From IMG/VR virus record IMGVR_UViG_3300031576_000241, positions 1 through 28,656 of that record: a DNA stretch of 28,656 bases; one strand, given 5' to 3'. A program made the translations under genes and the position numbers. The stretch's first letter is position 1. Every line of letters starts with the position of its first letter. This document shows positions 5,048-27,042 of the stretch, piece after piece. This stretch comes from a virus. The notes under the pieces were generated by a model. That model searched no databases and was not told where the DNA came from. It worked only from the letters and a program-made list of their open reading frames with translations.

Positions 5048-5489
5048 GATTTTCTCCTTTTAAAGTTGGGATTGAATAAACTTTAGTTTCTTTTTCTTTT
5101 GGAATGTCAAGAATACCCCTTTGAGCATTTTCTATTGCTTGTTTCCATTCGGTTTTATGTTCTTTATGCCACCATTTCATGTATTCTTGCCTTAAGTCCT
5201 TTTCTTTAAGTTCGTGACGAAAGTTCTTTTCTTGTATGAATCTATGATAATCCCCTGGCTTATCGAAATGACGCCAAATATCACATTCATAAATTTCTTT
5301 TATCACACGATCATCTAATTGTCTAAACGATCCATCTTCATTCTGAACATAGAAGATATGGAATACTTGCCCATCTTCTGCTCGCCTTTTAAGTGCCCAT
5401 CTTTCTAAGTTCACATCCCATTCTACAAAAAGACGATCATCATAGTTTTTAATTCGTTTCAAAACAGCTTTATCTAATGCTGGTCTCAT
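5034..5489 (-). CDS. Hypothetical protein downstream of major capsid gene
   Basis: A 151-residue, tryptophan- and charge-rich protein (WDVNLERWALKRRAEDG, EYMKWWHKEHKTEWKQAIENA). Its N-terminal half is likely beta strands and its C-terminal half helical. No clear ribosome site precedes the ATG; the upstream sequence is the 3' flank of the capsid-gene hairpin, so expression may be lower than that of the capsid protein. It overlaps the next start by 14 bases. Proteins of this look occur after the capsid gene in several podovirus-like genomes, but the function is unknown. Confidence 0.65.
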   Translation of the reverse strand: MRPALDKAVLKRIKNYDDRLFVEWDVNLERWALKRRAEDGQVFHIFYVQNEDGSFRQLDDRVIKEIYECDIWRHFDKPGDYHRFIQEKNFRHELKEKDLRQEYMKWWHKEHKTEWKQAIENAQRGILDIPKEKETKVYSIPTLKGENHESV

Positions 5490-14632: not shown

Positions 14633-14815
14633 ATGCCTAAAGTTAAAAGATCTACTACCCGTAAAACCAAAATCCTCCTAATCAAAGAACTAGCCGACTA
14701 CTTTAACATCAACCGTAAAACTGTCAGAACTTACCTCAAAGCTACTAATACAAATCTCAAAAACATCAACGAAACCATACGCTTCCTAATCTACATGCAC
14801 AGCATCATCAACTAG
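14633..14815 (+). CDS. Small helix-turn-helix regulator, only plus-strand gene
   Basis: This 60-residue basic protein begins MPKVKRSTTRKTKILLIKEL. Residues about 16-40 read as a helix-turn-helix (IKELADYFNINRKTVRTYLKA): helix, N-I-N turn, then recognition helix RKTVRTYLK. The C-terminal 20 residues are hydrophobic helix, likely a dimer contact. It is the only gene of this orientation in the window, with a sigma-70-type promoter at the right distance and no ribosome site, which points to a leaderless message. A self-regulated switch protein for the packaging/virion operon is inferred. The family is not named. Confidence 0.6.
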   Translation: MPKVKRSTTRKTKILLIKELADYFNINRKTVRTYLKATNTNLKNINETIRFLIYMHSIIN

Positions 14816-14824
14816 TTATCCACA
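14816..14824 (+). promoter_or_regulatory. Consensus DnaA box (TTATCCACA)
   Basis: The nine bases TTATCCACA, immediately after the stop codon of the plus-strand HTH gene, are the perfect consensus for host DnaA. A single box is weak evidence on its own, but it opens the repeat-rich noncoding stretch 14816-15195, which is a candidate origin or packaging locus. Confidence 0.4.
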
Positions 14825-18833: not shown

Positions 18834-19655
18834 TCAATCCAAAAAGGGTTGAGGGTTAAATATAATATTCGCTTCAGGCTTAACTTCTTTTTCTTCTTTT
18901 ATTTCATCTTCCCATCTTTTTCCGTTCAACCAAGAAGAAGCATAAGGAATATATTTTCCATTTTCTTTTATCCAATCTTCAGTTTTTTTAAATTTCTCTA
19001 ACGAGATTAAAATCTTTTTAAAAAGTTCCAAATCGGGCTTTAGTTTTTTCCAAACTTTAAAAGCGTAATCCTTGTTTAATTTTTTTGGATACAATTTCCA
19101 AAACTCAAGAAATGTTTCCTCTAAGTTTTGACGCAATGAGTCATTCGCAAGCCTTGAAGTTTTATTTTTAAAATCATTACTAGTTTGTGTATTAGTAGTA
19201 ATAATATTTGAGCATATATTAGTTTCTGTATCTGTATCTGTATCTGTATATGTCCACAGTGTCCTCTTTTGTCCACAATTGTCCACAAGCTTGTCCACAT
19301 TTCGATATTCCCTTTGCTTGATTGTTTTATATTGCCTTCTTTCATCTTCATTCATCTTTCGTGAGTAAAGTTCACCATTTAGGATCAACCATCCGCCATC
19401 TACTTTCTCAATTCTACGACCCTCAAAGGCTTCACTTCTGGAGTAAGGATCAGGGGATTGAAATTTGATAAGATATTTTTCACATTCTTCGATAGGGATG
19501 TTGCTTAAATTAGCTAAAGCTGGGATTGTAGCATCACAAATTTGTTTACTGTTTTTTAAAGCTAACATTGTTATCCATAGCACCCTGCAATTGTTAGGTT
19601 CTTGCCAAATTGTCGATGTAATAATGCTCTGAAATAACTTAGTATATCCAATCAT
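18834..19655 (-). CDS. Replication initiator / helicase loader (O- or DnaT-like)
   Basis: A 273-residue protein. Residues 1-105 are a winged-helix-type N-terminal domain (YTKLFQSIITSTIWQ, RVLWITMLALKN) like phage replisome organisers. A low-complexity linker (TYTDTDTDTETN) follows, and residues about 180-255 hold the conserved helical domain FWKLYPKK-x8-VWKKLKPD and YIPYASSWLNGKRWED seen in phage O-like and DnaT-like proteins. The N-domain should bind origin repeats and the C-domain recruit helicase. TTGTCCACA boxes lie in its linker DNA and its promoter. The ATG is at the predicted transcription start. Confidence 0.8.
   Translation of the reverse strand: MIGYTKLFQSIITSTIWQEPNNCRVLWITMLALKNSKQICDATIPALANLSNIPIEECEKYLIKFQSPDPYSRSEAFEGRRIEKVDGGWLILNGELYSRKMNEDERRQYKTIKQREYRNVDKLVDNCGQKRTLWTYTDTDTDTETNICSNIITTNTQTSNDFKNKTSRLANDSLRQNLEETFLEFWKLYPKKLNKDYAFKVWKKLKPDLELFKKILISLEKFKKTEDWIKENGKYIPYASSWLNGKRWEDEIKEEKEVKPEANIIFNPQPFLD
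19225..19248. repeat. Hexamer microsatellite, four TCTGTA units
   Basis: TCTGTA repeats four times in tandem within the initiator gene. It codes the TDTDTDT part of the linker between the two protein domains. It adjoins the TTGTCCACA cluster and may add flexible or easily melted DNA to the origin, and its copy number is likely to vary between isolates. Confidence 0.7.
19250..19299. repeat. Iteron / DnaA-type box cluster, candidate origin in initiator gene
   Basis: TTGTCCACA occurs at 19269-19277, 19279-19287 and 19291-19299, and ATGTCCACA at 19250-19258. Starts are 19, 10 and 12 bases apart. The motif differs from the DnaA consensus TTATCCACA only at the third base and equals the actinobacterial-type DnaA box. 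A further copy (19675-19683) is in the gene's promoter. Iterons inside the initiator gene, between DNA-binding and helicase-loading domains, are the arrangement of lambda ori. Confidence 0.65.
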
Positions 19656-19690
19656 ATTTTATATGTAGACATTTTTGTCCACATTGTCAA
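19656..19690 (-). promoter_or_regulatory. Self-controlled promoter of replication initiator
   Basis: On the minus strand TTGACA (19690-19685) and TACATA (19667-19662) are 17 bases apart, and the initiator ATG starts 6 bases later at 19655, so the transcript should begin at the start codon. No ribosome site is present. Between the boxes lies a TTGTCCACA copy (19675-19683) that together with TGTAGACA (19664-19671) forms an imperfect palindrome (7 of 8 positions) across the -10 box. Binding there would block transcription. The -10 box is weak. Confidence 0.55.
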
Positions 19691-19710
19691 AATGTTTCAT
19701 ATAACATATG

Positions 19711-19834
19711 CTTAAAAAAGAAGACCACGCCCTTCAAGGTGAAGGTAGGCACGTAGAACTCCGCTAAGAGATAGACGTGTTACGTGGTCTTTCAAATTCT
19801 TTTAATTGAAGCTAGCGGAGTTCTTTTCATTTGA
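19711..19834 (-). ncRNA. Structured noncoding RNA with interlocked stems
   Basis: On the minus strand, a 12-base stem joins 19813-19824 to 19755-19766 and a 9-base stem joins 19783-19791 to 19721-19729. The second stem begins between the two arms of the first and ends beyond it, which is pseudoknot topology. Smaller hairpins add CACGT/ACGTG (19750-19754 with 19775-19779) and CCTTCA/TGAAGG (19731-19745). The RNA ends in TCTTCTTTTTT, a terminator-like T run. No reading frame covers it. A promoter is predicted just upstream. It precedes the replication initiator. No known RNA family is recognised. Confidence 0.65.
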
Positions 19835-19840
19835 ATCAAA

Positions 19841-19869
19841 ATGATAATAAAATCACTCAATTTTGTCTA
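19841..19869 (-). promoter_or_regulatory. Candidate promoter for structured RNA
   Basis: TAGACA (19869-19864) and TATCAT (19846-19841) are 17 bases apart on the minus strand, giving a start near 19834, just before the first arm of the RNA structure. The -35 is 4 of 6 and the -10 is 5 of 6 against consensus. It overlaps the 3' end of the phosphatase gene. The call depends mainly on spacing and on fitting the 5' end of the structure. Confidence 0.4.
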
Positions 19870-20152
19870 TAAAATTCTTCCAAAAACTAGGCTTTAGTTT
19901 AGTAGCAGGAAGTGTAATGGTTTCGTAAGCATCGTCGATAATCATAGCAGGCTTATCTAGGAAATAATCAAAGAAGCCTTCAATCTTTTGTTTCTCGCAC
20001 ATCCTTCTTGCATACTCCATACCACCACCAGACCAACAGATAAGCCGATACCCTTTTTCTTTAAGATGGCGAAGTCCTTTAGCTACTCCAGGATAAAGGT
20101 TATCATCATGATCAATCATCGTTAAATCAACATCAATGTAAGCTGTCCCCAT
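19853..20152 (-). CDS. Small HAD-superfamily phosphatase
   Basis: The 99-residue protein has the HAD motifs in a minimal layout: AYIDVDLTMID (D7 nucleophile, D9), CWSGGG with the motif II serine, K at DKPAMIIDDAYE (motif III lysine and the IDD acid pair). Start chosen at the ATG 20152, following AAGGAAG; a TTG precedes it. HAD proteins this small in phages are usually nucleotide or polynucleotide 3'/5' phosphatases. Substrate cannot be told. It directly precedes the structured RNA. Confidence 0.8.
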   Translation of the reverse strand: MGTAYIDVDLTMIDHDDNLYPGVAKGLRHLKEKGYRLICWSGGGMEYARRMCEKQKIEGFFDYFLDKPAMIIDDAYETITLPATKLKPSFWKNFIDKIE

Positions 20153-20176
20153 CAAGTCATTCTTCCTTAAGATAAA

Positions 20177-26469: not shown

Positions 26470-26496
26470 AAATACCTCCTGATAGATAGTATAAAC

Positions 26497-26610
26497 TAAA
26501 AACCCCGGCCAAAGCCAGGGTTTTCTCTTTACATTATCTTTTGAACAACATAAAGTTCTCGGTATGCAACGAGAGGGTTCAATCTTATCCAAAGAGTGCT
26601 GGTTAGTCAA
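26497..26610 (-). ncRNA. Three-hairpin small RNA with own promoter and terminator
   Basis: Minus-strand TTGACT (26610-26605) and TAAGAT (26587-26582) are 17 bases apart; transcription should start near 26575. The RNA then folds into consecutive hairpins with almost no gaps: CGAGA/TCTCG (26570-26574 with 26557-26561), CTTTATGTT pairing with AATGTAAAG (26547-26555 with 26527-26535, two G-U pairs), and a terminator stem (26499-26509 with 26514-26524) ending in a T5 run. The transcript would be about 78 bases. No gene lies inside. Target unknown; the terminator sits 30 bases before the holin gene. Confidence 0.65.
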
Positions 26611-27042
26611 GTCTAACAATTTAAAACAGGCTCGTTCAAAAGCTCTTATCAAAAAGATTTCTCTTCCCGACAGCTTTATACTGGCCCGGAAGATGGTTCG
26701 GCACATAGGCACCTACCGAGTGTAGCCACGTGAAAATCCACGTAAGCGGGTAATCAGCAACCTGCTTGGACAAACTAAAGTCGGCTATTCCTAAATAGCT
26801 ACCATGAGCTGATCATTAAAGTTTAATTTACTCTCATTAATAATGGGGGGTAGGGGGGCAACTCTTCTCTAACCCTCTAGCATTACCTAGCCTGGGCAGT
26901 TGATTAGTAGTTAGGTAATGCAGACATGACTAGTTAGCTATAAGTGTGTTAAAATAAATTAAACCGAAAATTTTTGAAATTTAAATTATGAGTATTTTAC
27001 TTTGGATATTACTAGGCTTCATTATCACAATTGTTTGGAAAG
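26611..27042. other. Noncoding stretch with inverted repeats and G-runs
   Basis: No convincing gene is seen. Elements include GCTATT/AATAGC (26784-26789 with 26794-26799), AAGCGGG/CCTGCTT (around 26744-26767, one wobble on the plus strand), ACGTG/CACGT (around 26729-26744), a GGGGGG-TA-GGGGGG motif at 26845-26858, and a perfect 10-base inverted repeat GCATTACCTA (26880-26889) with TAGGTAATGC (26912-26921). A 21-codon plus-strand frame at 26988-27053 lacks a ribosome site. Structured RNA or a protein-binding locus are both possible. Confidence 0.45.

Follow-up and report, generated by a model that had tools for sequence, protein, structure and literature searches.

What does the gap directly upstream of the replication initiator of this phage contain, and how could it act on the initiator? 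The window that we analysed is the whole 28,656-base stretch of viral DNA. Nearly all of its genes lie on the minus strand, in the order early genes, gap, initiator, primase-like, DnaB-like helicase, resolvase-like, terminase, portal and capsid, the last three being labelled by similarity and order. The gap covers 197 nt (19656-19852), with a HAD-like ORF on one side and the phage replication initiator on the other, and the element sits within it. The initiator begins at ATG 19655 without a Shine-Dalgarno sequence, whereas most genes of the window have one. The features around the element are as follows.

18834-19655, minus strand: replication initiator, 273 aa, matching phrog_9474 (5.5e-24) and phrog_270 (1.4e-23)
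19853-20155, minus strand: upstream HAD-like ORF terminating at the gap edge (PF00702, 4.4e-5, under the curated cut-off)
19251-19299, plus strand: four iterons TGTCCACA in the initiator gene, from the sequence a probable replication origin
19676-19683, plus strand: single iteron TGTCCACA between element and initiator, from the sequence a probable operator
19656-19690, minus strand: possible initiator promoter TTGACA-17-TACATA, read from the sequence, with an iteron copy in the spacer; its second hexamer is weak and the promoter scan did not call it

The octamer TGTCCACA was found in five copies in the window against 0.61 expected. All five iterons fall within the initiator gene or just ahead of it, which makes a role of the gap in replication control probable, and their placement would fit a probable origin inside the initiator gene combined with an autoregulatory operator copy ahead of it. 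The TTGACA-17-TACATA sequence would put the transcription start at the initiator ATG, resulting in a leaderless message. In the iteron region (19251-19299 / 19676-19683), TTGTCCACA differs from a DnaA box by one base. Elsewhere in the window, a 60-aa HTH-like ORF at 14633-14815 on the plus strand overlaps the region in which a minus-strand ORF begins, and a DnaA-box match, TTATCCACA, is found right after it (14633-14824).

The original prediction had described an RNA pseudoknot beside a replication initiator, made of two perfect stems with two smaller hairpins inside and covered by no protein frame, and our analysis bears out the stems with their coordinates and interlock, the smaller helices and the position beside the initiator; that the element is made as RNA is probable only from its sequence. 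Both stems are 100% complementary. In plus-strand letters, P1 pairs AGAACTCCGCTA (19755-19766) with TAGCGGAGTTCT (19813-19824) over 12 bp and P3 pairs AAGACCACG (19721-19729) with CGTGGTCTT (19783-19791) over 9 bp, while the smaller helices pair CCTTCA (19731-36) with TGAAGG (19740-45) and CACGT (19750-54) with ACGTG (19775-79). A weak third hairpin, TCAA (19792-95) with TTGA (19806-09), was also seen. In the order of the minus strand the helices are the following.

19813-19824, minus strand: 5' arm of stem P1, AGAACUCCGCUA, perfect 12-bp complement of 19755-19766
19792-19809, minus strand: weak A+T hairpin P2 between the 5' arms of P1 and P3, seen in the sequence, not in the MFE fold
19783-19791, minus strand: 5' arm of stem P3, AAGACCACG, perfect 9-bp complement of 19721-19729
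19750-19779, minus strand: stem P4, CACGU (19779-19775) with ACGUG (19754-19750) in the minus reading, in the MFE folds of both strands
19755-19766, minus strand: 3' arm of stem P1, UAGCGGAGUUCU, within the loops of P4 and P3
19731-19745, minus strand: hairpin P5, CCUUCA-CCU-UGAAGG, in the MFE folds of both strands
19721-19729, minus strand: 3' arm of stem P3, CGUGGUCUU, from complementarity and sequence, with CUUUUUU directly after

Read along the minus strand, the first half of the element runs P1 5' arm, P2, P3 5' arm, UAA, P4 5' arm and CUAUCUCU, and the second half P1 3' arm, P4 3' arm, CCUA, P5, G, P3 3' arm and CUUUUUU. P4 closes the loop that contains the P1 3' arm, P1 and P3 interlock with loops of 46 and 53 nt, and P4 and P5 complete a three-way junction. 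There are no ORFs of at least 60 aa over 19656-19852; two tiny frames are present, one of 12 codons on the minus strand from ATG 19830 and one of 19 codons on the plus strand from ATG 19707. These features support the prediction of a compact, non-coding and pseudoknot-capable element. An imperfect inverted repeat closing the ends (19716-19737 / 19806-19827, 73%) gave a weaker fold (-25.6) and was dropped. A comparison by hand with the HDV-like ribozyme topology gave a misfit, the P4 helix spanning the P1 3' arm.

When the whole window was shuffled 300 times with its dinucleotides preserved, only 2 of the shuffles contained a pair of interlocked perfect stems of 12 and 9 bp or more within 135 nt, and 1.13 Mb of other phage DNA contained a single comparable interlock. 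The GC content is 0.45 in 19721-19824 and drops in the flanks to 0.24 (19656-19710) and 0.11 (19835-19852). The z-scores of the nested fold, -3.3 for the minus and -2.9 for the plus strand, would not alone single out the element, because several coding stretches reach lower values; the interlock, unlike the z-score, does single it out. It might nevertheless have no RNA role, the fold being due to chance or the element serving the origin region as DNA. The iterons do adjoin the element, and for the STAXI motif, which occurs near DNA-handling genes, a single-stranded DNA form has been considered possible (PMC2864571). However, loops as long as those of P1 and P3 make cruciforms unlikely and the interlock is rare compared with the shuffles, and we consider this explanation very improbable. 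The element resembles STAXI in being a pseudoknot near genes of DNA-handling proteins, but STAXI is arranged in tandem, as two or three copies that often have UUCG loops (PMC2864571), and the element was unmatched in the Rfam search.

On the minus strand, the nested fold has a predicted energy of -33.2 kcal/mol, the fold with P1 enforced -31.7 and that with P3 enforced -32.2; the P3 domain with the P1 arms left free gives -26.3 and the P1 duplex -19.5 kcal/mol. With an assumed pseudoknot penalty of 6-9 kcal, a pseudoknot containing both P1 and P3 is estimated at about -37 to -40 kcal/mol. The nested P1 and P3 folds are thus near-equal (-31.7 versus -33.2), yet mutually compatible as a pseudoknot. 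In prefix folding of the minus strand, all 12 P1 pairs were present once the 3' arm had been made (from 19755), and P3 took over only after the U-run had been transcribed.

From which strand would such an RNA be transcribed? The T-rich end of the minus strand and the promoter-like site with 17-base spacing, both noted in the original prediction, are present, together with comparable signals on the other strand.

19841-19869, minus strand: promoter-like TAGACA-17-TATCAT, 10/12 matches, predicted start about 19834
19711-19720, minus strand: T-rich run past P3, CTTTTTT directly after the stem, candidate terminator tail
19684-19712, plus strand: promoter-like TTGTCA-17-TATGCT, 9/12 matches, facing into the element, predicted start about 19719

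Neither promoter-like site is evidence by itself, because the 2.3-kb region holds 6 such sites against 8.0 expected in shuffles. The strand is ambiguous, since both strands have a promoter-like site before the first arm and a T-rich run after the last, and the perfect stems give no G-U asymmetry. A functional plus-strand RNA would be transcribed from 19684-19712, divergently from the initiator, starting near 19719 in the 9-bp stem and ending near 19830. Its promoter-like site overlaps the TTGACA of the initiator side, its fold is about as stable as that of the minus strand, and the RNA could add three G-U pairs, two of them at P4 and one at P3, where the minus strand could add two. On the other hand, the run that follows its last arm, TTTCATTT, is a weaker T-run than the CTTTTTT of the minus strand, nearly all genes are on the minus strand, and a transcript of such kind is not known; we regard a plus-strand product as rather unlikely. 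The better tail and the gene direction favour the minus strand. A discrete minus-strand RNA is plausible rather than established, because the plus-strand signals are comparable and promoter-like matches are not enriched.

A standard terminator scan, covering loops of 3-8 nt, called no intrinsic terminator at the element, where the 9-bp stem followed by CTTTTTT closes a branched loop of 53 nt. This bears on the suggestion that the element, as a passive operon-end terminator or insulator, does no more than keep transcription of the early genes from entering the replication operon, the interlock being incidental. T-rich runs on both outward sides, the end of the HAD-like ORF at 19853 and the possibility that the initiator has its own promoter would all suit such a role, but a plain short hairpin would suffice for it, no such terminator was called, and an interlock of 12 and 9 bp with a three-way junction is rare. 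We therefore give this explanation little weight.

Most likely, the element controls the amount of replication initiator made. The pairing, its rarity, its location, the iterons and the consensus-like sites are all observed, and the form of control that we prefer, tentatively, is a minus-strand leader that acts as a pseudoknotted attenuator or terminator before the initiator and may, in the manner of pT181, be joined by a counter-transcript of the plus strand. That the leader is transcribed, terminates and switches, and that a counter-transcript is made at all, we infer from the sequence. The minus transcript would start at the promoter-like site ending at 19841, or come from the early genes upstream, and P1 would fold as soon as its own 3' arm emerges. 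The three-way junction of P3, P4 and P5 might then enclose the 3' arm of P1, so that a pseudoknot arises in which P3 lies directly against the U-run. Once P3 had formed, the polymerase would leave the template near 19714, and a stable RNA of some 120 nt would remain; should P3 fail, or be delayed by P1, read-through into the initiator at 19655 could follow. Perhaps control arises from the competition between P1 and P3. A counter-transcript from the plus site at 19684-19712 would be complementary to the whole leader and may provide a further control input, and the iteron copy at 19676 may add self-repression by the initiator. Counted against the leader, P3 with its branched loop of 53 nt is unusual as a terminator. 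Also, the initiator lies 65 nt beyond the element and may have its own promoter, so that the leader need not belong to the initiator message.

The same minus-strand signals could instead mark out an autonomous small RNA gene that has a promoter and a terminator of its own and extends over about 120 nt, from 19834 to near 19714; its product would act in trans or on a protein. The structure is framed by the promoter-like site with 10/12 matches and the U-run tail, and the fold is compact and without an ORF. However, when duplexes of the RNA with all phage translation starts were predicted, the best were no better than those of shuffled RNA, and the initiator start was absent from the six best. 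In addition, the collections that we searched yielded no homologue, and the promoter matches are at chance level. An autonomous RNA is to our minds unlikely, if still worth considering. Thus, the part of the original prediction that proposed a folded control RNA is consistent with a compact non-coding element flanked by signals, while the antisense part, as far as action in trans is concerned, is not supported beyond the level of shuffled RNA.

RNA control of initiators is classical in plasmids and, to our knowledge, has rarely been described for initiator genes of tailed phages. Plasmid pIP501 uses a counter-transcript-driven attenuator of rep mRNA, and in IncI-type plasmids the repZ pseudoknot is located at the ribosome site of the initiator. 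In phages, the P4 CI RNA and the c4 antisense RNA act as control RNAs in operon leaders, ahead of replication or antirepressor genes; they differ from the element in that c4 is in Rfam, where we found no match, and that trans-complementarity here is not beyond chance. The rep mRNA of pT181 is likewise controlled by a counter-transcript-driven attenuator (Novick 1989, as cited in PMC10724649). The element resembles the pT181 and pIP501 systems in having a structured leader, a terminator-like stem before the initiator gene and promoter-like sites of both strands flanking the leader; these sites are consensus-like and not above shuffle expectation. In contrast to those plasmid systems, we have here a phage and a pseudoknot, known from sequence alone, and a counter-transcript, if made, would extend over the 3' arm of the terminator-like stem as well. 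A pseudoknot switch has been described for repZ (repA) of IncIalpha/IncB/IncL-M (Asano and Mizobuchi 1998, as cited in PMC10724649). The element shares with it an RNA pseudoknot upstream of the initiator and a tiny frame overlapping the first arm. Here, no arm adjoins a ribosome-binding site of the initiator: the U-run and 65 nt intervene before ATG 19655, and the initiator has no Shine-Dalgarno sequence.

Does the element have relatives? The original prediction had recognised no RNA class in it, and accordingly the Rfam 15 covariance models gave 0 matches over the window at the gathering cut-off, the sub-threshold matches in 19600-19950 having E values of 0.57 or worse. BLAST against phages and plasmids gave no credible match; the best phage match of the RNA, TS-12 (38 nt, E 3e-3), lies in coding sequence and is without the stems. 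Scans of viral contigs and of genomes found no locus with the element region, and no homologous locus was reached with the initiator and helicase as queries in viral contigs or by scanning bacterial genomes via the neighbouring proteins. Queries with portal, capsid and terminase gave L002, L003, L004 and L095 as relatives, or only distant terminases; these four nearest phages are structural-half fragments whose contigs stop before the element region. Viral contigs were also scanned with RNA patterns (the 12-bp stem core, the loop pattern, and the 9-bp stem with a T-run), and the candidates failed by pairing or were coding. In L188 and L201, P4 and P3 were matched, but inside a 264-aa ORF.

Parallel layouts were found in unrelated phages. 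The single strong interlock in the 1.13 Mb, L116 281-376, has stems of 9 and 13 bp and ends 15 nt before an HTH_36 initiator-like gene; TTGACA-16-TATAAT precedes it and a 36-codon frame spans the pseudoknot (271-391). In L195 (1249-1347), a promoter-like site, an interlock of 8 and 19 bp, a T run and a Shine-Dalgarno sequence are followed by a helicase-DNA methylase gene, and this leader had no credible Rfam match. This parallel across phages may be a coincidence, because a gap upstream is missing from most of the homologues of the L195 gene that we fetched, and the three gaps tested showed no interlocked element; a conserved link between such an element and the methylase gene was thus not seen in these homologues. 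L079 (5309-5440) and L045, both fetched by the stem pattern, have an interlock of 12 and 10 bp (5309-5415) before a DNA methylase-like gene. Their first-arm AGACGCA recurs just before the Shine-Dalgarno sequence, so that the loop could pair with either copy, suggesting a possible translational switch. L130 presents a weak parallel, also before a DNA methylase. All of these layouts have the order arm1-arm2-arm1'-arm2' with an early DNA-metabolism gene directly after, some with a T-run, but they have no sequence similarity to the element. We treat them as leads, not homologues, and hypothesize that they could belong to a common class. Stems anchored by a T-run whose loop pairs upstream over at least 8 bp numbered 8 against 1.9 expected, a count to which the present window contributes two cases and which also takes in a locus selected by pattern and some coding stretches. 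If what defines such a class is base-pairing between a 5' arm and the loop of a terminator-like stem before early DNA-metabolism genes, the element might, within it, represent a new RNA family, a pseudoknotted two-strand attenuator (leader and counter-transcript) of a phage initiator, which we consider doubtful.

Should the preferred leader be real, plasmid-style copy-number logic would have been carried into a phage, and interlocked terminator-like leaders would be worth seeking in phage early operons, since nested-fold scans and Rfam miss them.

Two other structures were observed. In the window, positions 26490-26960 on the minus strand form a non-coding, strongly folded stretch of about 470 nt (MFE -136.6, z -3.5) upstream of a holin-like ORF, ending in the terminator-like CCCTGGCTTTGGCCGGGGTTTTT; it had no Rfam match above the cut-off and is a candidate large structured phage RNA. 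In two phage groups (L207/L219/L221 and L209/L220), a hairpin, GACCACGG...CCGTGGTC, is located directly after a gene with an SSB-like acidic tail, and its inner GCCGATTAGCC is common to both groups.
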